This document shows positions 7,845-28,695 of a stretch of DNA of 29,867 nt, piece after piece. Both the position numbers and the translations under genes were made by a program. Every line of letters begins with the position of its first letter. Within the stretch, counting starts at the first letter, position 1. The DNA lies in the IMG/VR virus record IMGVR_UViG_3300045931_000522, positions 1-29,867 of that record; one strand, 5' to 3'. This stretch comes from a virus. Under the pieces are notes generated by a model that was not told the DNA's origin, ran no database searches, and saw nothing but the letters and a program-made list of their open reading frames with translations.

Positions 7845-7878
7845 AGTCGGGTAACCTCCTGTTATCCCTATGTGTTCT

Positions 7879-7933
7879 GGCGAGAGGTGTTGGTTGGCGC
7901 CGGCCCTCTCGCCGTCCTCTTCGGTCCACATAA
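7879..7933 (-). promoter_or_regulatory. 5' hairpin leader of the fusion nuclease gene
   Basis: Perfect 9-bp stem: 7879-7887 (GGCGAGAGG) with 7905-7913 (CCTCTCGCC). Read on the minus strand it lies 24 bases before the AGGAGG and after a weak -10 candidate, TTATGT (7928-7933). The same GGCGAGAGG arm is in the hairpin before the HNH gene at 13950-14546, so the two leaders appear related. Confidence 0.6.
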
Positions 7934-8137: not shown

Positions 8138-9930
8138 TACTCATCGTCCTCCTCTTCCATCCCTGGATAGCGGTCCCATGGTTCAAATTGTGGCAACCGC
8201 CAATACCAGAGATTTTTCTCTCGATCTTTACTGCTGAGAACGCCGAGTGCCGCTTTGGCGCGATTGAGCGTCCGCTCGGGAATGCCCAGCGCCTCGGCGG
8301 CCGCGGTGACCACCGTTGCCGGGTGCGGCCCATCCCGCAAATAGTCCTTGAGCCATTGCATCGCATTCTGACGCTGATGCTGGCGCTTGTTCGGCTGGAT
8401 GGCCGCCAGGCTATCCGCGTCGAGTTCGCAGACGCCGCACCACCGAAAGACATCATCGAGCAACTGAAACGTTTGGGATTTGCCAAACGGCGCGAGGGAG
8501 TTCTTGCTCTGGGCGATGACCCTGATGGTGGGATCATCAGGCGATTCGCCCAGCGCCAGGACCGAGCGGGCCGTGGCCGTGAAGTCGATACTGCCCTGGC
8601 CGCGGTACATGGCCTTGCCGCCCCCGCTCTTATTCCAGTGGCGGATGACCACCATGGCGCAGTGCTGGCGTTCGGCCACGAGCCCGAGCTGCCGCATGAG
8701 GGGCCGCACTTCATTGGCGCGGTGCATGTCCACCTCGGCGCCGAGGAAGGCGGAGAGCGGGTCCAGGATCACCAGGCGTGCCTTAAAATCCCGGACGGCC
8801 TCTTCCAGTAAGGTGAGATTCGCCATGGAGAACGGATGCATCTCCTGCTCATCGGCGGTCCAGCCCAGCACCGCCTTGATATGCTGCAGATCCGCGCCCA
8901 TCTTGGCGGCCCGGGGCACTAAGGTATCCCCATAGCCGTCCTCCGCCGTGATATAGAGGGTGGTAGCCGGATCACGCAGCCCGCCCATGATCTGCCCATT
9001 GGAGGCTGGTAAGCCGGTGCCGAGCGAGAGGGCTGTGGCAATAGCGAGCAGGAGGTAGGTCTTCCCTAAGCCTGGATCGCCCTCAAGAATGGTGAGCTTC
9101 CCGGTGGGAATATACGGATGCCAGAGCCAGTCGATGTGCTCGATCGGAATATCCGCAAAGGCCACGACCACCATGTGCGGGGCGGTGAGCACTGGCTTGG
9201 CATGGGCCGTGAAGGCAATCAGTTCCTCCTTCGTGTGCCCTGCAGCAAACCAGTCGGTGACATCGCCGCGCTCGGGCAATCCAGGCAGCTCGACACGGTG
9301 TAAGCGCTGCACGTACCCTGCCAGGCGCGTGGCAACCAGGTCCGCATGGTGGCGGCCGGCGGCATCGTTATCCGGCAGCAGAATGACGAGCGCATTCTTG
9401 AGGGCTACCGAGTAACTATCGTCCCACTTGCCGGCGCCCATGGGATTGGAGGTCGCGACGAAGCCATGCCGCCGCAGCGTCTCGACATCCTTTTCCCCTT
9501 CCACAAGATACACGGGCATACTGGCACTAATCGCCTTGAGGACTTCCGGCAAGCGATAGAGGACAGGCGTAATACCCTTCAGATCGTGAATCCACTTTCC
9601 AGGATGGACGGGATCGGGCCGGCGTTGAAAAAACCTCTTCTGGGCGCCAGCCGCACGCACGGCCTGAAACAACAGATGGCCACTGGCGTCATGGTAGGTG
9701 TAGAGAGCTTGGTACTGGGCCTCTCGCGGTGTCCGGTCGAGGTGGAGGGCATCAAAGAGGACTTTGCGATCACACCCGGCAAAACAATGAAAACAAATCT
9801 GGCCGTCCTCTTCCCACAGGTGTAACGACGTATCCGACTCGCCCTGATGCACCGGACACTTGGCCCGCCAGCCCCCTTTATCGGTATGCGCACCCTCACA
9901 TTGCTGGGCAATTTGGGCGAGGCTTGGCAT
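8137..9930 (-). CDS. Primase-helicase: CHC2 zinc finger, TOPRIM and RepA-type ATPase
   Basis: A 597-residue replication protein. Residues about 25-53 form a CHC2-type zinc finger (CPVH, then CFHCFAGC). Residues about 138-230 are a TOPRIM domain with VEGEKD (Glu144) and PDNDAAG (Asp187/Asp189). Residues about 275-470 are a RecA-fold helicase with Walker A GDPGLGKT (284-291), Walker B RLVILD (385-390) and 'VIRHWNKSG'. The C-terminus (about 525-580) looks like a winged helix ('GIPERTLNRAKAALGV') that may bind DNA. AAGGA precedes the start by nine bases. It probably acts at the iterons that abut its 3' end. Fused primase-helicases of this type are typical of phages and satellite elements. Confidence 0.92.
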   Translation of the reverse strand: MPSLAQIAQQCEGAHTDKGGWRAKCPVHQGESDTSLHLWEEDGQICFHCFAGCDRKVLFDALHLDRTPREAQYQALYTYHDASGHLLFQAVRAAGAQKRFFQRRPDPVHPGKWIHDLKGITPVLYRLPEVLKAISASMPVYLVEGEKDVETLRRHGFVATSNPMGAGKWDDSYSVALKNALVILLPDNDAAGRHHADLVATRLAGYVQRLHRVELPGLPERGDVTDWFAAGHTKEELIAFTAHAKPVLTAPHMVVVAFADIPIEHIDWLWHPYIPTGKLTILEGDPGLGKTYLLLAIATALSLGTGLPASNGQIMGGLRDPATTLYITAEDGYGDTLVPRAAKMGADLQHIKAVLGWTADEQEMHPFSMANLTLLEEAVRDFKARLVILDPLSAFLGAEVDMHRANEVRPLMRQLGLVAERQHCAMVVIRHWNKSGGGKAMYRGQGSIDFTATARSVLALGESPDDPTIRVIAQSKNSLAPFGKSQTFQLLDDVFRWCGVCELDADSLAAIQPNKRQHQRQNAMQWLKDYLRDGPHPATVVTAAAEALGIPERTLNRAKAALGVLSSKDREKNLWYWRLPQFEPWDRYPGMEEEDDE

Positions 9931-13669: not shown

Positions 13670-13873
13670 TTAACGGCCGTTCTCTTTGCCGCGCACCAGG
13701 TGCTCGCCAAGCTGCTGCAGGGCGATTTTCGTTTCTTCCGCGATCACCGTCATGTCCACGATGGCGGAGCGAATGTCTTCGATCGCGGCGCCGATGCGTT
13801 CATTGACCCGGTCCTGGTGGGTCATCACCGCGCTCAGTCGCCGGAGTAAGCGTTCGACATCGGATGGTTCCAT
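13670..13873 (-). CDS. Small coiled-coil protein
   Basis: A 67-residue protein. The start at 13873 has AAGGAG six bases upstream. The sequence (from MEPSDVERLL) is one long amphipathic helix with heptad spacing of Leu, Ile and Val, so it is likely a coiled-coil oligomer. It is directly downstream of the displaced 3' end of a SWIM gene at 13915-13971, so the original operon order was SWIM gene then this gene. Function unknown. Confidence 0.6.
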   Translation of the reverse strand: MEPSDVERLLRRLSAVMTHQDRVNERIGAAIEDIRSAIVDMTVIAEETKIALQQLGEHLVRGKENGR

Positions 13874-13914: not shown

Positions 13915-13971
13915 TTACTGGTAGCGGGGCTGGTACGTCGTGCCCAGCTTCACGGTGAGCATGGCGGCAAT
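13915..13971 (-). pseudogene. Displaced 3' end of a SWIM-finger gene
   Basis: In the minus-strand frame ending with TAA at 13915-13917, about 19 residues (reading ...[17 protein letters not shown]) align with the last 19 residues of the SWIM protein at 14622-15026 (...AVWLTIKLGATYKPSYN), with about ten identities and no gap. The fragment has no start of its own and overlaps the HNH stop. It is best explained as the original gene end, separated from its body by the HNH insertion. Confidence 0.7.
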
Positions 13972-14546
13972 GGCTCTTCCTCGGGCAGATGTGTCCAGGT
14001 GCGACGCTCGATGATGTGGTCAATCGTGCTCTTATGCACGCCAAATTGTGCGGCGATTGTTGTGCGACGTTTATCGTATTGGTAGATGCGGCGGATTTCT
14101 TGCACTTGATCATCTGTAAGTTTGGCGCTGGCGTGTCGCTCTCCGCGTACCTGATATTCAGGATGTGTCGCTCGAAGTTGCTTGTGTATCTCTGAGCCAA
14201 GATAGCCGAGATGTCCTTTGGCTTTGGCATCCTGCACATTGTCATTCGGGGTGCCAGCCCATAGATGGTGAGGATTGACGCAGGTTTTGACATCACAACG
14301 ATGACAGACATACAGGCCAGGCAACAGTTCACCATAGGTCATGATATAGATAAAACGATGTGCACGAATGCCCTGACGGTGTATATGAAAATTGCCATAT
14401 CCGGATGAGAGGCTGGCTTGCCAGAGCCAACAACAGGCTGTGCAGGTGGCCCCATGGCCACAACGCGACACCTTGCTCCAGAAGTGCGCGAGCAGTTTCG
14501 TGGTATCGGAGAGGTCGAGTTTCCGTCTAGAATAGGTGCCAGCCAT
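13950..14546 (-). CDS. HNH homing endonuclease inserted in a SWIM gene
   Basis: A 198-residue protein. The start at 14546 (MAGTYS) is preferred for AAAGGA ten bases upstream. It carries the HNH_3 pattern: [14 protein letters not shown], then [15 protein letters not shown], then '[20 protein letters not shown]' with the catalytic His region, and [11 protein letters not shown]-terminal NUMOD-type helix-turn-helix follows (about 140-185, '[19 protein letters not shown]'), which binds the target. The gene carries its own -10 box and hairpin upstream. Its 3' end overlaps the displaced SWIM-gene end. Same family as the gene at 27704-28330. Confidence 0.88.
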
Positions 14547-14581
14547 GGCCGCGTATCCTTTCATACGGGGTGATGGTCAGC

Positions 14582-14630
14582 AGGGCGAGGGGATTGCCGT
14601 CCTCTCGCCTTGCGTTATTCCCTAATTATA
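14582..14630 (-). promoter_or_regulatory. Promoter -10 and 5' hairpin of the HNH cassette
   Basis: On the minus strand TATAAT (14625-14630), inside the end of the SWIM gene, is followed 13 bases later by a 12-bp hairpin (14582-14593 with 14600-14611, two G-U pairs) with loop CGGCAA. One arm contains GGCGAGAGG, identical to the arm before the fusion nuclease gene at 6810-7844. Transcripts would start with this hairpin near their 5' end. Confidence 0.6.
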
Positions 14631-15026
14631 CGATGGTTTATAGGTGGCACCAAGCTTGATCGTCAGCCATACAGCCCATACGTGTTTGCAAGGACCAGCC
14701 TGGTACGTGGCGGCTTTGCAGTCACACGTCCAAGGGCCTCGTGTCACCAGATGCGCGAGTTCTGTATCACTCTGGCTTGCGACGAGCCATGTCCCGTCCG
14801 TCAGGGGCCACACGTCCCTGGCCTGGACGAGCGTGGCGGCCCTGGCGATGCGCGTGGCGGCCTCGGGCAGGGCCGTGACCGCCTGCCCCACCTGCGTGGC
14901 CAGCGCCGTCACCAGCGCCCGCTCACGGTCCTCGGCGGCCTGGATGTTCGCCGCTTCGATCGTGGCGTACCAGGACTGGCTGCCGTTTTTCTCTTGCTTT
15001 GTGCCGGTCGTGTGTCCAAACTTCAT
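14622..15026 (-). CDS. SWIM-type zinc finger protein
   Basis: A 134-residue protein. The start at 15026 has AGAGGAG nine bases upstream. Residues 101-115 are a SWIM finger (CDC, then CKH) in 'WTCDCKAATYQAGPCKHVWA'. A helical region with many Ala and Arg (20-75) precedes it. It is transcribed leftward from the divergent promoter at 15118-15146. Its last codons (14622-14690) are probably not original: a related 3' end lies at 13915-13971 beyond the HNH gene. The SWIM motif binds DNA or protein; a link with the larger SWIM protein at 5414-6673 is possible. Confidence 0.75.
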   Translation of the reverse strand: MKFGHTTGTKQEKNGSQSWYATIEAANIQAAEDRERALVTALATQVGQAVTALPEAATRIARAATLVQARDVWPLTDGTWLVASQSDTELAHLVTRGPWTCDCKAATYQAGPCKHVWAVWLTIKLGATYKPSYN

Positions 15027-17159: not shown

Positions 17160-18713
17160 ATGGCCACCCTGCCCTTTCCCGTCACCCCCGGCGTGCAGCG
17201 CCTCGCCCGCGTCATGCTCGAGCGCCGCCAGGCCGCTGACCGCCTGCGGCAGTTCCAGCCGCTGCCCAAACAACTGCCCTTCATCCGCGCCGTCCTCACC
17301 GACGCGGCGCCGTGGGAGCACTGGTACTGCGCGGCGAATCGCGCCGGCAAGAGTGCCGCCGGGGCCTACTGCGGGGCCACGCTGGCGCGCTTCGGGCCGG
17401 ACGATCCCCGGCCGGCCATCGGTCCGTCCGCCGTGGTCTATGACCGCGCGACGTCCGGGTGGGTGGTGGGCCCCGATTTCCCGACCCTGCGTGACGTGCT
17501 CATGCCGACCTATTTTGACAACGGCTATCTCTCGCCCACGCAGGACATCGGCCCGTTCATCCCGGCGAGTGAGATTGCGCATTGGAGCTGGGACAGCCAG
17601 GTGCTCAAGCTGAAAAATGGGTCGCTCCTGGGCTTTAAGTCGAACGAACAGGACACCGTGAAATTCGCCGCCGCCGGGAAGGATTGGGTGCACTTCGACG
17701 AAGAGCCCAAGCGCACCGGGTATGAGGAAGTGACGCTGCGCGTCGCGGGTGGGCGCCACCTGCGCATCTTCGGCACGGCCACGCTGTTGCCGCCGGAAGG
17801 CGTTGTGGGCGGTATTAGCTGGATTTATGACGACATCATCCAGCCGTGGCAAGCGCGCCAGCGGACCGATGTCGCGGTGTACGGCGCGTCCATCTACGAT
17901 AACCCCTACATCCTGCCCGAAGAGATTGCGCGGCTCGAAGCCCGCTACCCGGTGGGCTCGCTGCAACGGCGCATCCGGCTGGAAGGCGAGTGGCTGCCGG
18001 GGATGACGGGCGTGCCGGTGTACGGCTCCTTTGAACGTGAAGTCCATGTGAAACGACAGCCCGCGTTATCCCCGAATCGGCCCTTATTATTCGCCCTGGA
18101 CTTCAATGTTGATCCGTTTGTGGGCATTGTGGGACAACAGGACCGCACACGTTTCTCCATCGTGCGAGAGTTCGTCTTAGAGCCTGGCTCTATTCCGCAG
18201 ATGGTAGAGGCTTTCCGCAGTGCCTATCCAAGTCATGCACACGAAATATGGCTCTACGGCGACGCCACAGGTGGCGCGCGGCATGTGCAGGAAGGCAAAA
18301 GTGATTGGCGGGTGGTGTTAGAGTACTTCAAAACCTATCCGAGTCCCATTAAGTTGCGTATACCCGACGCCAATCCGCCGGTGCATGCGCGCATTAACGC
18401 CGTCAATATGGCGCTGATGGACGAATTTGGGGCGTCGCGGTTGTATATTGACCCTGCCTGTGTCGAACTCATTGCTGATCTTGAACGGGTTATTAGTGAT
18501 GGCCGTGGTGGCATTCTGAAGAGCTACAGCCAACGCGACCCCTACAGTAAACGTACGCATTTATCGGACGCACTGGGGTACCTCATCGCCCACGCCGCGC
18601 CGGTGGGATCGGCCTCGCTTGCCGGCGTCCGGCGGCGCCAACAGATCCCACGTCCCGCATATGGCAATCAGGTTCCAGGGAGGACCTCACAGGCTATCGC
18701 GCATCGCAGGTAA
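17160..18713 (+). CDS. terL: Terminase large subunit
   Basis: A 517-residue packaging motor. The ATPase has Walker A CAANRAGKS (57-65) and Walker B with Asp180-Glu181 in 'DWVHFDEEP'. The C-terminal RNase-H-like nuclease has acidic residues at Asp314 ('FALDFNVDP'), Asp368 ('LYGDATGG') and Asp470 ('HLSDALGYL'). It cuts concatemers and pumps DNA through the portal at 19568-21679. The stretch from about 18040 to 18590 is less GC-rich, with more TTA/TTG-type codons than the first half, suggesting replacement next to the HNH gene whose end overlaps this gene by 20 bases. Confidence 0.95.
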   Translation: MATLPFPVTPGVQRLARVMLERRQAADRLRQFQPLPKQLPFIRAVLTDAAPWEHWYCAANRAGKSAAGAYCGATLARFGPDDPRPAIGPSAVVYDRATSGWVVGPDFPTLRDVLMPTYFDNGYLSPTQDIGPFIPASEIAHWSWDSQVLKLKNGSLLGFKSNEQDTVKFAAAGKDWVHFDEEPKRTGYEEVTLRVAGGRHLRIFGTATLLPPEGVVGGISWIYDDIIQPWQARQRTDVAVYGASIYDNPYILPEEIARLEARYPVGSLQRRIRLEGEWLPGMTGVPVYGSFEREVHVKRQPALSPNRPLLFALDFNVDPFVGIVGQQDRTRFSIVREFVLEPGSIPQMVEAFRSAYPSHAHEIWLYGDATGGARHVQEGKSDWRVVLEYFKTYPSPIKLRIPDANPPVHARINAVNMALMDEFGASRLYIDPACVELIADLERVISDGRGGILKSYSQRDPYSKRTHLSDALGYLIAHAAPVGSASLAGVRRRQQIPRPAYGNQVPGRTSQAIAHRR

Positions 18714-19254
18714 GGAGCCATGGTTGCACAGGGCCTGGAATGGGCCGAACCCATTTCTTGCGGTTGCATGAGTGGCAGGAAGCTACGACGTTCCAGAGGG
18801 TGTGGTTGCCACCATCGATAATCGGTGTGATGTGGTCAATGCACAGGATGTGGGTGCCGTGATGACACTCTGCACATTCCGGCTTGTAGTACGGACAATA
18901 GGCGCAGACCCCATGGGCCATGGTGAGAACAAACACGCGTTGGCGTGCGGTAAAATCCCGCCGAGTAACGCGTTTATGGCGTGCACGACGTTGTTGTTGC
19001 GCATTGCGAGCGGCTTCAGGGTGGCGTTTTGCCGAGGCTTTTTTGATGGCTTTCCGCTCGGGGGTTGTATTCAAGACAAGGATGTCATCGCGGTTGGCGT
19101 AGTAGTACGTCAGGCCCCGCTGGCGGCGATCCGCCAGGTGGCGTACGTAATTACGGCGATTGGATGCTTTGGTAGCTTCAGGATGAGCGGCACGCCATTG
19201 TCTCGCATAGCGGCGGCCGCGCGCACGACGCTTCTCAGGGTCTTTGTACGGCAT
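18694..19254 (-). CDS. HNH homing endonuclease between terminase and portal
   Basis: A 186-residue protein. The start at 19254 has GGAGGT eight bases upstream. It begins MPYKDPEKRR like the partial gene at 1-211, with a long basic N-terminal region that may bind DNA. The HNH core is near the end: CAYC and CAEC zinc-binding pairs, 'LCIDHITPIIDGGNHTLWN' with the DH pair, and 'SCHSCNRKKW'. It is antisense to the packaging genes and overlaps the terL end. It has a structured leader with a compensatory change relative to copy 1 (245-296) and its own TATAAT upstream. Confidence 0.9.
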   Translation of the reverse strand: MPYKDPEKRRARGRRYARQWRAAHPEATKASNRRNYVRHLADRRQRGLTYYYANRDDILVLNTTPERKAIKKASAKRHPEAARNAQQQRRARHKRVTRRDFTARQRVFVLTMAHGVCAYCPYYKPECAECHHGTHILCIDHITPIIDGGNHTLWNVVASCHSCNRKKWVRPIPGPVQPWLLTCDAR

Positions 19255-19290
19255 GAGGACCAACCTCCGGTTGTTGGTTCCGGTTTGGGT

Positions 19291-19341
19291 GTGTGGCAAC
19301 GCGCCGGAAACGCGCTTTCGGGGTCGACTCCCTAGCCACAC
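19291..19341 (-). promoter_or_regulatory. Structured 5' leader of the HNH gene (copy 2)
   Basis: Outer stem GTGTGGC (19291-19297) with GCCACAC (19335-19341); inner hairpin CGCG/CGCG (19300-19303 and 19311-19314) and a GGG/CCC hairpin. It has the same layout as 245-296, with the inner 19 bases identical and the outer arm changed in both strands (T-A to A-T). A TATAAT on the minus strand (19375-19380) lies 33 bases upstream and could start the transcript. Confidence 0.7.
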
Positions 19342-19397: not shown

Positions 19398-19583
19398 ATG
19401 GCACAACTTCCTGATCACGACTCGTGTAAAAAGTGCGGCGATGACCTCTTCGGCTTCGTGCGAGCGATCGGCGTGTGCGGCAGGTGTATGCAAATGCCAC
19501 CACTGCCCACGTCCGTGCCCAGGCCGACGTATACCCTGTACACCCCCAGGGCCGTGAAGGAGCGCGTGTGGCAGAGACCCTAG
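19398..19583 (+). CDS. Small CxxC protein before the portal gene
   Basis: A 61-residue frame with CKKCGDD and CGRC, giving a two-pair zinc ribbon, and a Pro/Thr-rich tail. It overlaps the portal start by 16 bases. The Shine-Dalgarno is poor (GTAGGTA). It may be a genuine small zinc protein like those at 2310 and 11020. The alternative is that the region is only the portal leader. Confidence 0.45.
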   Translation: MAQLPDHDSCKKCGDDLFGFVRAIGVCGRCMQMPPLPTSVPRPTYTLYTPRAVKERVWQRP

Positions 19584-24959: not shown

Positions 24960-25907
24960 ATGCCCCATGATACAACATGTCCGATTTGTGGTACAGCCAT
25001 GCGTGTTCCTGATCGTACTACACGTGATCAGGCGCATTATTGTTCACGGGCGTGTGCCAATAAGGCACGGCGCAAACATATCCCGCTCGAAGGGACGTGT
25101 AAAGTGTGTGGCGCTGTCTTTGTCTACGTGGAAAATCCTGCATTGCCCGGTCGCGGCCAGTATTGTAGTCGTGCCTGTGCCAATGAGGGCCAACGGGTGC
25201 ATCGTACTGCATTGTGTGTGCACTGTGGCACCACGTTTCCCCTGTTGTACAAAACGCCGCCAAAGCCCGGCAGTGGGCAATATTGTTCGATGACCTGTGC
25301 GAGGGCTGCACGGACGGAGAAAGTACGGGTGGATCGTATCTGCCTCGTCTGTGAGCAACCATTCTGGGTCTACGAAAGTCAGTTGCGCCGGGAAGGGCCT
25401 GGGCAAAAAGGTGTCTTTTGCTCGCGCGCATGTGCGGTAAAAGGCCGCCAGAAGAACACCTATAACAATACCACGCGCCGGCGGACGGCGACGTATCAGT
25501 ATCATCGCCGTGGGTATGTTATGGCCTATGCCCCAGATCATCCAAGTGTGCAGGAACGGATCAAGCGTGGTAGTCGGCATTACTATGTGATGGAGCACCG
25601 GCTTGTAATGGAACAGGCCCTCGGACGATATTTGCATCCCTGGGAGAATGTGCATCACAAGAATGGCGTGCGCCATGATAATCGTCTGGAGAATCTCGAA
25701 GTGTGGGTGAAAGCGCAACCTGCAGGGCAGACGAATGAGTATCTCGATTATGTGCTCATCCTCTTGCGGCAATTGCGAGAGGCAGGGATACGCCCGGAGG
25801 GATGGCCAGGCACGCAAGCTCCAGGGCCGTTTGTTGTCGCCATACCCGCACCTGTCCATCCTGAGCAACTCGGCTTTCTGCTGCCCCAACCGGAGGGCAC
25901 GCACTAG
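24960..25907 (+). CDS. HNH homing endonuclease with four zinc knuckles
   Basis: A 315-residue protein starting at ATG 24960 with AAAGGAGG upstream. The N-terminal about 160 residues are four copies of a zinc-finger unit: CxxC, about 15-25 residues, then C-S-x-x-C (Cys7/10 and the CSRAC, CSRAC, CSMTC and CSRAC pairs). A basic linker follows. The HNH core is at about 200-260: '[20 protein letters not shown]', then [21 protein letters not shown] with the catalytic His. The zinc array probably binds a long DNA target. Its position between capsid and the next structural gene fits intronless homing. Confidence 0.9.
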
Positions 25908-26776: not shown

Positions 26777-27139
26777 ATGGCCGAGGAAGCCCCTGCCGCC
26801 CTCGCCCCCGAGGAAGAGGCGGCTGCGATGCTGTACAGTGTGTACCGCCTTCAGGTGGGCGGGGTGAACGAAGCCGGGCTTGGCATGCCAGCCTGGGCGG
26901 ACCTCTCTATCCCCTTGCACAACGCCTGGATGGCTGTGGCGGAGGCGGCCAGTGGTGGTGCGCCCCCTGTGCAAGCGCCAGCCCCATCCGCCGGGCTGTG
27001 GACGCAGGAGGACCTGGAGCAATTGACCGTCAGCGACTTGCGCGAACTGGCCACGACGGGGGGCGTCAGCGTGGCGTCGAGTGCGACCAAGCAGCAGCTC
27101 ATTGATGCGCTCCTGGCCAGCCAGGCGGCCTCACCGTGA
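26777..27139 (+). CDS. Hypothetical protein with SAP/Rho-N-like C-terminus
   Basis: A 120-residue protein with TAGGAGG upstream. The N-terminus is acidic and Ala-rich; a Pro/Ala linker follows. The last 40 residues ('DLEQLTVSDLRELATTGGVS' and 'ATKQQLIDALLAS') look like a SAP or Rho-N helix-extension-helix fold that binds nucleic acid. Its stop overlaps the next start (GTGA). A role near head completion is inferred from position. Confidence 0.65.
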   Translation: MAEEAPAALAPEEEAAAMLYSVYRLQVGGVNEAGLGMPAWADLSIPLHNAWMAVAEAASGGAPPVQAPAPSAGLWTQEDLEQLTVSDLRELATTGGVSVASSATKQQLIDALLASQAASP

Positions 27140-27696
27140 GCGCGCCGGCGTTCTCTCTGCGGGTCCACGTCTACGAAGACAACCGCCAGGACGGGACGCG
27201 CACGCTGGTGGCCTATACGCCGTTCCTGCGCCTCGGGGCCCCGTCAGGCAGTGGGCATGCCGGGGAGGTGTGTTACCTCCAGCACGGCTATGTCTATGGC
27301 GAAGGGGGTGATCCCTACGACGTGGAGGACCTGCCGGACTGGTTCGGGGCGGCCCTGGCCGCGCTGACGCCGCAGGCGCGGGTGGATGTGGGGTTTACCG
27401 CAGATCGGGTGCAGTGGTACACCGGTGGGGACGGTCCAAACGACGTGTGGCCGTCGTCAGGGGAGGCGGCAGCGCCGGTGCCCGTGCTGCCGTCGTCACC
27501 GACGTTCCCGCCGGGCTTCAAGCCTGACCAGTGGGTGCTGGGATTTCTCTGTTCGCGCCAGCACGACTACGCGGACACGGGGCGGAGCCGCTACAACAAA
27601 CAGATGAAGTGTGTGGACTGTGAGGCGCTGCGGAAGCACGTCAAGCCGAAACAGGCCAAGGCTCCAGAGGCCAAACACCTCATGGCGACGACGTAA
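27136..27696 (+). CDS. Hypothetical structural-region protein
   Basis: A 186-residue protein starting with GTG 27136, overlapping the previous stop. The first half is beta-rich, with Tyr/Gly ('GEVCYLQHGYVYGEGGDPY'); a Pro-rich linker (about 105-135) follows, then a C-terminal part with Cys/His residues ('FLCSRQHDY', 'KCVDCEALRK') that may bind metal. No family recognised. It converges with the HNH gene that ends 8 bases away. Confidence 0.6.
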   Translation: MSAPAFSLRVHVYEDNRQDGTRTLVAYTPFLRLGAPSGSGHAGEVCYLQHGYVYGEGGDPYDVEDLPDWFGAALAALTPQARVDVGFTADRVQWYTGGDGPNDVWPSSGEAAAPVPVLPSSPTFPPGFKPDQWVLGFLCSRQHDYADTGRSRYNKQMKCVDCEALRKHVKPKQAKAPEAKHLMATT

Positions 27697-27703
27697 CGGG
27701 GCG

Positions 27704-28330
27704 TCAGTTGTCAGGGACATGTCGCCAGGTCTTGCGGTGGATGATGGAGGAAATGGCGCTATGCGATACGCCGAACATGTCGCCAATGGCTTGTTGACTC
27801 AAGGTCCCATTGCGCTGTAGATGACGGATTTCCCTGACCTGCTCCGCAGTCAGTTTGGCGAATGTGGTCTTTTCTCCGCGAGGGACTCTTTCAGGATGAA
27901 GGCGAGCGCCACTCTTTGCACCACGGGGGATACGTTCTGGGCGCGTATGCACCCAATGACGGCCTTTGCGCACCATGTCTTGCATATTGTCGGTGCGTGT
28001 GCCAAGGAACAGGTGGACAGGGCGGACACACGCTGGTGTATCGCAGCGGTGGAGCACCCACAATCCATCAGGAATAGGGCCAAAGGTCAGTTCATAGGCG
28101 AGGCGATGGACCAGGATGGCTTTCGAGTCAACAGTTATGGTGCCATAGCCAGCCGTACTGTGCGAGCCCATCCACAGCCAGCAGGTGTCTGTAATCTTGA
28201 CCCGCGCCCACAAGCGTTCGACAAGGCTCATATGTTTGAGCCTGGCAAAGTGGGAAAGTTTCCACGCCCGACCCGGCGCGCATACCTCTTGGCAACCGCA
28301 GGAACACCATCTATCTTTGTTCTCAGCCAT
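27704..28330 (-). CDS. HNH homing endonuclease with C-terminal HTH
   Basis: A 208-residue protein. The start at 28330 has GAGGT nine bases upstream. The N-terminus has a Cys cluster (CSCGCQEVC) that may bind zinc. The HNH_3 core has 'CWLWMGSHSTAGYGTI', 'LVHRLAYELTFGPIPDGLWV' and 'LHRCDTPACVRPVHLFLGT', then DNMQDMVRKG. The last about 60 residues are a NUMOD-type HTH ('QQAIGDMFGVSHSAISSIIH'). Same family as the HNH gene at 13950-14546. It is antisense to the structural genes and has its own -10 box (28418-28423) and 14-bp hairpin upstream. Confidence 0.9.
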   Translation of the reverse strand: MAENKDRWCSCGCQEVCAPGRAWKLSHFARLKHMSLVERLWARVKITDTCWLWMGSHSTAGYGTITVDSKAILVHRLAYELTFGPIPDGLWVLHRCDTPACVRPVHLFLGTRTDNMQDMVRKGRHWVHTRPERIPRGAKSGARLHPERVPRGEKTTFAKLTAEQVREIRHLQRNGTLSQQAIGDMFGVSHSAISSIIHRKTWRHVPDN

Positions 28331-28423: not shown

Positions 28424-28455
28424 CCATTGATGCGCTCTAGAGTACAGGAGTAGCT

Positions 28456-28695
28456 GTGTCGATTGCGAACATGCCCGCAAACGCAAGAAGTCAGGTGCTC
28501 CACGACGTGCTGCAGCAGCGACTCCAGGTGCTGCAGACTGAGCAGCAAGCCGACCTCACGCGCGCGCAGACCTTAGAGGCACAGCGCCAGCAGCTTGTGG
28601 AGGCGTGCCTGCGTCGGGCTGGGGCCATCGCCGAGCTTGAGGCCCTGTGTCAGCCGATTGTCGCGACAAAAGTGGAGGAGGACGGCCGTGGCTGA
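28456..28695 (+). CDS. Small coiled-coil protein
   Basis: A 79-residue protein starting with GTG 28456 after AGGAG. It is a single long helix with heptad leucines and many Gln ('LHDVLQQRLQVLQTEQQADL'), so a coiled coil, ending with an acidic tail. It overlaps the next gene by 8 bases. The first about 60 bases are somewhat AT-richer than the following codons. Possibly a head-completion or tail-attachment factor. Confidence 0.6.
   Translation: MSIANMPANARSQVLHDVLQQRLQVLQTEQQADLTRAQTLEAQRQQLVEACLRRAGAIAELEALCQPIVATKVEEDGRG

Follow-up and report, generated by a model that had tools for sequence, protein, structure and literature searches.

Some phage HNH homing endonucleases very probably move as part of a composite element, in which the HNH gene is joined to a short hairpin spacer and a recoded version of the target gene's 3' end. 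The gene end, the spacer and the HNH gene are seen directly together inside the invaded gene, whose frame is complete, and in the case of a DNA polymerase gene (polA) the native end is found stranded behind them. The arrangement came to light at a SWIM-domain gene in the window, that is, the whole 29,867-nt stretch of an IMG/VR virus record (IMGVR_UViG_3300045931_000522) to which all coordinates refer unless another contig is named. Read along the minus strand, the SWIM gene (15026-14622) is followed by the spacer, the HNH gene, a fragment and a further gene, with these features:

14781-15026, minus strand: 5' part of the SWIM gene, codons 1-82, an ORF of native-like composition (GC3 74/82)
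14622-14780, minus strand: 3' part of the SWIM gene, codons 83-134 and stop, which holds the SWIM finger and probably arrived with the HNH element (GC3 27/52)
14565-14621, minus strand: 57-nt spacer with a hairpin (predicted fold), from the SWIM stop to the HNH start
13950-14564, minus strand: HNH endonuclease gene, 204 codons (HNH_3 PF13392, E 1.3e-7; PHROG endonuclease families, E to 2.5e-22)
14235-14366, minus strand: HNH_3 domain, residues 67-110 of the HNH protein (profile match to PF13392)
13972-13985, minus strand: approximate junction between element and native DNA, placed by eye from HNH alignments A1 and A2 and the start of SWIM homology
13915-13974, minus strand: orphan SWIM 3' end, probably native, 19 codons and stop, recognized by tail alignment (GC3 17/17 over the aligned codons)
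13670-13873, minus strand: next gene, 67 aa

The first-pass annotation had placed the HNH gene between two SWIM ends and had described the fragment as followed by an undisturbed Shine-Dalgarno sequence and the next gene, and both statements hold: the orphan lies beyond the HNH gene, and the SD-like AAGGAG and the start at 13873 are intact. The same annotation gave the fragment as a 19-residue tail at 13915-13971 with about ten identities; the identities stand, and the coordinates need correction, as that interval holds 18 residues and a stop and 19 residues require 13915-13974.

Residues 93-119 of the SWIM protein match SWIM PF04434 (E 3.7e-6), and its in-place tail is of the type ..LTIKLGATYKPSYN. 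The orphan aligns without gaps to the end of this protein (AVWLTIKLGATYKPSYN and stop), with 10/17 residues and, at the nucleotide level, 27/51 nt identical, and both sequences finish at a stop codon; the two tails differ at 16/17 codons, nine of the differences being synonymous and seven not. When the last 30 residues of each of 41 window ORFs were sought within 2 kb downstream, SWIM came out on top with a score of 56 (mean 29.7, sd 6.5; the ORFs were hand-chosen and two, 25919 and 28500, had out-of-frame coordinates), and none of 5000 shuffles of the target region reached that score, the best being 44. The resemblance is therefore beyond chance. The pattern [VI]KLG[AT]TYxPxY matched one contig in the viral collection, at the two SWIM tails; this contig, of 37 kb, is identical to the window phage across their overlap, and because the pattern was built from both tails the single match shows rarity rather than homology.

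The HNH domain scores above the PF13392 cut-off, and the HNH proteins align in A1 and A2. The start of the gene may be an internal ATG at 14546, chosen by eye, which follows an SD-like AAAGGA. Aligned HNH proteins mostly finish near ...TWRH, the last 8 codons of the window ORF (PLPPCSP and stop) enter the SWIM remnant out of frame, and SWIM-end homology starts about where HNH-specific sequence stops. The region 14545-14621 has a predicted fold of -26.4 kcal/mol (z -2.28; 5/200 shuffles equally good). On the plus strand, antisense to the start of the HNH gene, 14541-14616 gives a sub-threshold Rfam match to the symR antitoxin RNA (42.2 bits against a cut-off of 61, E 3.1e-6), which mostly reflects the structural similarity of two hairpins and may be due to chance.

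Which of the two SWIM ends is native can be judged from composition. GC3 falls from 74/82 in the first codons of the SWIM gene to 27/52 in the last (Fisher p 9e-7), with a change point at codon 82 (range 74-86), 144-180 nt before the stop, that none of 2000 shuffles equalled; a plausible composition boundary is thus 14768-14804. The HNH gene, with GC3 of 109/205, resembles the last part of the SWIM gene. Over the aligned codons the in-place end has 8/17 and the orphan 17/17 (Fisher p 0.0009), the latter resembling the phage. Zinc-binding genes are not low in GC3 in the window, GC3 being 46/61 in the 61-codon gene at 19398 and 39/50 in the part of the 5414 gene that resembles SWIM. Given the GC3 mosaic, the HNH-like in-place end, the phage-like orphan and the point at which homology starts, the orphan is probably the native SWIM end, and it was probably the HNH gene that brought the in-place end. 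This direction of replacement is read for a short remnant from composition and from analogy with polA, and it agrees with the earlier proposal that the HNH gene landed near the SWIM 3' end and brought a substitute end: the GC3 mosaic fits, and polA shows the same directly.

No HNH-free SWIM relative emerged when viral and genome collections were scanned with the protein, when phages and plasmids were searched by tblastn, or with two degenerate patterns, the searches returning only the identical 37-kb contig; the remaining matches of one pattern, CKHx8KLGxTY (1 viral and 5 genomic), proved spurious on translation. No SWIM relative turned up in 18 records of terminase relatives, which are fragments, so that an empty answer shows little, and tblastn found no SWIM gene in one contig whose terminase is 80% identical and which reaches the SWIM region (L006).

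The polA case provides the comparison of relatives with and without the HNH gene. In locus L120 the invaded gene encodes a family-A DNA polymerase (PHROG 17, E 5e-99), and the order is the polA end AKIGSTWDQCK and stop, 63 nt, the HNH gene and the remnant AKVGDSWDQAK and stop, the last overlapping the start of the next gene as TAATG. Among the best 80 of 194 polA relatives found, 79 reach the gene end (one is partial), and of these 72 have no such HNH gene and 7 are carriers, L124 being the contig of L120 itself. All 72 HNH-free relatives have a single polA that leads directly into the next gene, the match to which starts 3-48 nt behind polA, and L125 and L127-L136 (HNH-free, 91-93% identical) end in AKVGDSWDQAK, stop and TAATG, the same as the L120 remnant. 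The carriers L144-L146 are 99.8% identical to HNH-free L164 over -1200 to -180 of the polA end and 63% over the last 150 nt, whereas their remnant and next gene beyond the HNH gene match L164 at 74/75 positions. For L124, L126 and L143, the remnant agrees with the nearest HNH-free relative, as selected by a script, at 72, 71 and 72 of 75 positions. In all these comparisons, that with L164 included, the 75 positions start at the 11-nt motif used to find the remnant, so that 11 match by construction on the carrier side. Each remnant therefore belongs to its own lineage, and at polA it is the stranded end, not the in-place end, that matches element-free relatives. Such a stranded second end is present in 6/7 carriers, L148 being the one without it.

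The divergence of the carriers' last 150 nt (62-71% identity) is outside the range of 102 HNH-free pairs with 88-98.5% upstream identity, which average 92% with a minimum of 77%; L148 (84.7%) and L144-L146 (99.8%) fall outside this upstream band. In the last 50 codons the synonymous and nonsynonymous differences number 18 and 11 for L124/L125, 15 and 18 for L143/L150, and 19 and 17 for L144/L164, so that, with 11-18 nonsynonymous codons, the carried polA end is not merely synonymously recoded. The motif GCTAAGGTCGG occurs at -33 in 69/72 HNH-free polA genes, the remaining three reading GCTAACGTCGG; it occurs in 0/7 carriers' polA and instead stands at the HNH/remnant junction in 6/7, at a constant 555 nt from where the polA coding sequence ends. 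The HNH frame of L120/L124, L126, L143 and L144 continues in frame into the stranded polA end, and the HNH proteins thus bear a polymerase C-terminal tail (AKVGDSWDQAK, AKVGDSWDQAE, AKVGLSWDQAK and AKVGLSWDQAK, respectively).

In each of the 7 carriers the mismatch change point that marks the left boundary falls at -144 or -145 against most of the five nearest HNH-free relatives. This is directly after the polymerase's conserved HDE codons, a catalytic motif. Together with the 555 nt to the junction, this boundary defines a 700-nt unit in L124, L126, L143 and L144. The exceptions are a boundary of -128 against L125 and L127, and L148, for which comparison with L158 and L159 leaves it unsure (-307 to -142). 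Over -150 to -90, HNH-free L125 is 83% identical to carrier L124 and 55% to HNH-free L128, which means that a portion of this segment can be present where the HNH gene is not; the carrier-type segment in the polA of L125 and L127 is perhaps the trace of a lost element or of recombination.

In the polA core tree the carriers are scattered, with 5 changes, at least 4 of which are forced by well supported branches, and the AU test rejects their forming a single clade (p 6e-116). When the tree is built from the last 145 nt, it places 7/7 carriers on one side of a branch (SH-aLRT 91; 0/500 label shuffles), and is the weaker result, being a quick tree of 145 columns with long branches (L143, L144). 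The tails of the carriers are just 66-72% identical between lineages. L124 and L126 have tails 97% identical, spacers identical at 63/63 positions and HNH genes 96.5% identical in nucleotides, against 86% for the polA core, as expected of recent joint transfer.

The spacers of the polA elements also contain predicted hairpins, with z scores of -3.7, -4.2, -1.3 and -2.5 compared with -2.3 in the window, and among the polA spacers one pair change is compensatory and several outer pairs are broken. It is a guess that these hairpins limit HNH expression. The 63-nt spacers of L148 (4349-4411) and L124 (1682-1744) are identical at 59/63 positions and the HNH proteins behind them only about 38%, so that retention or exchange of the spacer does not depend on the enzyme.

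These observations have to be weighed against other explanations. One is that an ordinary free-standing HNH gene inserted downstream and that its flank was co-converted from a diverged donor, with nothing specialised involved, which we consider possible, though somewhat unlikely. Flank co-conversion is established for T4 homing endonucleases (PMC2988022), and it would suit both the closeness of tail, spacer and HNH gene in L124/L126 relative to the polA core and the fact that HNH-free L125 and L127 have some of the carried segment. By itself, however, co-conversion leaves the stranded native end and the change of motif in 7/7 carriers unexplained, and the same left boundary (-144/-145) and the same 555 nt between polA end and junction motif recur across lineages. 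The two explanations are not mutually exclusive; they differ on whether the carried end belongs to a defined element.

It is improbable that the orphan is what is left of a decayed tandem SWIM paralogue, with the downstream copy having lost all but its last codons and the HNH gene having landed between the two. Tails that differ at 16/17 codons could come from diverged paralogues, and the collections searched gave no HNH-free SWIM relative with which to compare them; but fragment homology begins about where HNH-specific sequence ends, the GC3 change lies inside the intact SWIM gene and not between genes, and 72/72 HNH-free polA relatives have one polA directly before the next gene. Very unlikely is a group I or group II intron that carries the HNH gene and is spliced out, with the orphan tail as an exon: phage group I introns are known to harbour HNH endonucleases, in a DNA polymerase gene as well (PMC3428280), but in the window and five polA loci no Rfam family reached its gathering score, the two junction regions gave no intron family at E values up to 10, Rfam showed no catalytic group I intron core around the HNH ORF, an in-frame homologous end with its own stop already precedes the HNH gene, and in polA the recoding sets in about 110 nt ahead of the junction position. 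Judged from sequence, the HNH gene does not appear to lie inside an intron, given the Rfam result and the complete gene end before it, and the insertion would be intron-free, as had been suggested.

The composite element, which we prefer, would work as follows. The HNH protein would nick or cut an uninvaded gene at its native 3' end, and repair would copy the element from an invaded relative, pairing at the conserved upstream stretch of the gene. Because the left junction is inside the gene, the carried recoded 3' end completes the gene in place and its full frame is kept, as is seen in the sequences. The native 3' end would be left downstream of the HNH gene, where it is found at polA and where composition suggests it at SWIM. 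Since the carried end is recoded and without target-like sequence, as observed for polA, the element's enzyme should spare the gene once it has been invaded.

The arrangement is not general among HNH genes. A survey covered 90 HNH loci, made up of 75 of 80 collected loci, 12 phage loci and the 3 window HNH genes; L049, L054, L073, L092 and L097 were left out as too near a contig end, the 80 were the best 80 of at least 483 with near-copies kept in, and remnants under about 10 residues escape the method. A first score (any frame, 90 HNH against 278 control ORFs) was uninformative, with low-complexity matches equally high in controls. A second, limited to gene tails, gave p ≤ 0.004 in 6/226 HNH tests versus 1/649 control tests, and 19/226 versus 32/649 at 0.05. 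By eye, three of the six top cases look real, namely SWIM (as L044, the identical contig), polA (L120) and a site at 27704, and the other three (L046, L082 and L114) look like chance.

At the 27704 site, an upstream gene (27136-27696, plus strand) is followed by an antisense HNH gene (27704-28330, minus strand) and an orphan tail (28455-28541, plus strand). The upstream gene ends CVDCEALRKHVK... and the orphan tail reads CVDCEHARKRKKSGAPRRAAAATPGAAD and stop, a resemblance equalled in 4/5000 shuffles. GC3 is 9/28 in the orphan versus 24/30 in the in-place copy, and contig L009 has a gene of the 27136 type without an HNH gene (8738-9277), which matches the in-place copy at 29/36 nt and the orphan at 21/36. 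Here it is the orphan, not the in-place copy, that looks foreign.

The first-pass annotation had also proposed looking for the same replaced end at other HNH insertions, and the outcome is mixed: polA has it, the 27704-28330 gene has a duplicated tail with the foreign-looking copy in the orphan position, and 18694-19335 and 24960-25907 show no clear remnant. The tail-like match past HNH gene 18694-19335, third of the 41 in the second-tail test, is not a remnant: it sits in a 61-codon gene, and L010 has the same gene directly behind the terminase, without an HNH gene. The HNH gene stands between the terminase and the 61-codon gene; at the corresponding place in L010 (989-1178) the terminase runs straight into the small gene. 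L009 is without HNH gene 24960-25907, yet one of its short ORFs (7872-7922, LLLLPHPEGTH and stop) has, by eye, nearly the last codons of that gene; either it is a deletion remnant or the HNH ORF took its end from the host. The Kayfunavirus HNH gene between genes 15 and 16 (T7-like; annotated 7.7C in CR44b) encodes a related protein (alignment A1) and, as at the polA site, is present or absent among close relatives, but it is a clean insertion between genes in which the end of gene 15 is not replaced (3 carriers versus 2 non-carriers). The gene-15 end beside the HNH gene is not unusually diverged, and the idea that HNH genes replace gene ends as a general rule is therefore rejected.

The usual view is that free-standing homing endonucleases survive by landing between genes or hiding in introns and inteins, and carrying a spare ending would be a further way for an endonuclease to live inside a gene. 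The chances are about even that homing elements which swap gene ends form a distinct class in phages. Such elements would be discrete units (about 700 nt in polA) of recoded end, structured spacer and HNH gene that move between lineages into the same gene site, restoring the gene and protecting it by recoding. If so, each such element must evolve together with one target gene. Carried ends would explain odd orphan gene ends beside HNH genes, and genes such as the DNA polymerase would become chimeric, which is a trap for phylogeny. The natural pairs with and without the element are suited to tests of homing, of immunity by recoding and of element boundaries.

Overall, the literature searched, which lay mostly outside subscription journals, gave no example of a carried gene end in a phage, and the accessible parts of two studies of phage HNH or homing endonucleases (PMC12724721, PMC10448857) describe none. 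The free-standing endonucleases of T4-like phages (Mob, Seg) resemble the loci described here in that they do not lie inside an intron and co-convert their flanks, and the polA site also in being present or absent between relatives. According to the available part of PMC2988022, however, they occupy intergenic positions and cleave hundreds to thousands of bp away, or interrupt the host gene (Aeh1 nrdA, T4 gene 60), and no replacement 3' end accompanied by a stranded native one is described for them there. At T4 gene 39/60, where the enzyme is MobA (PMC2988022), the invaded gene is likewise altered, by the insertion and a 50-nt bypass insert, in a way thought to protect it against the enzyme; in the portion of PMC5009743 available, however, protection comes from the 50-nt insert that ribosomes skip and from the split gene, and no gene end is replaced.

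The closest known systems are those of fungal mitochondria, where, in the available text of two studies, endonuclease ORFs occur with a foreign C-terminus and the native one stranded behind (PMC3630166; PMC4019555). Examples are Allomyces macrogynus atp6 and Glomus sp. atp6, atp9, cox2 and nad3 (PMC3630166), and both studies cite Paquin et al. 1994 for mitochondrial mobile ORFs. Like these, the phage loci have an endonuclease ORF near the 3' end of a gene, an in-frame C-terminus that is foreign (probably so at SWIM) and a stranded native C-terminus (again probably so at SWIM), which at polA is closer to relatives: an endonuclease ORF behind an in-frame gene end is present in the window and at the polA loci, and a second, diverged copy of the gene end lies beyond it in the window and in 6/7 polA carriers. 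The mitochondrial ORFs encode LAGLIDADG or GIY-YIG enzymes, whereas the phage elements have HNH_3, a hairpin spacer and, for polA, a constant junction distance. The arrangement described here is a phage variant of one already documented in fungal mitochondria.
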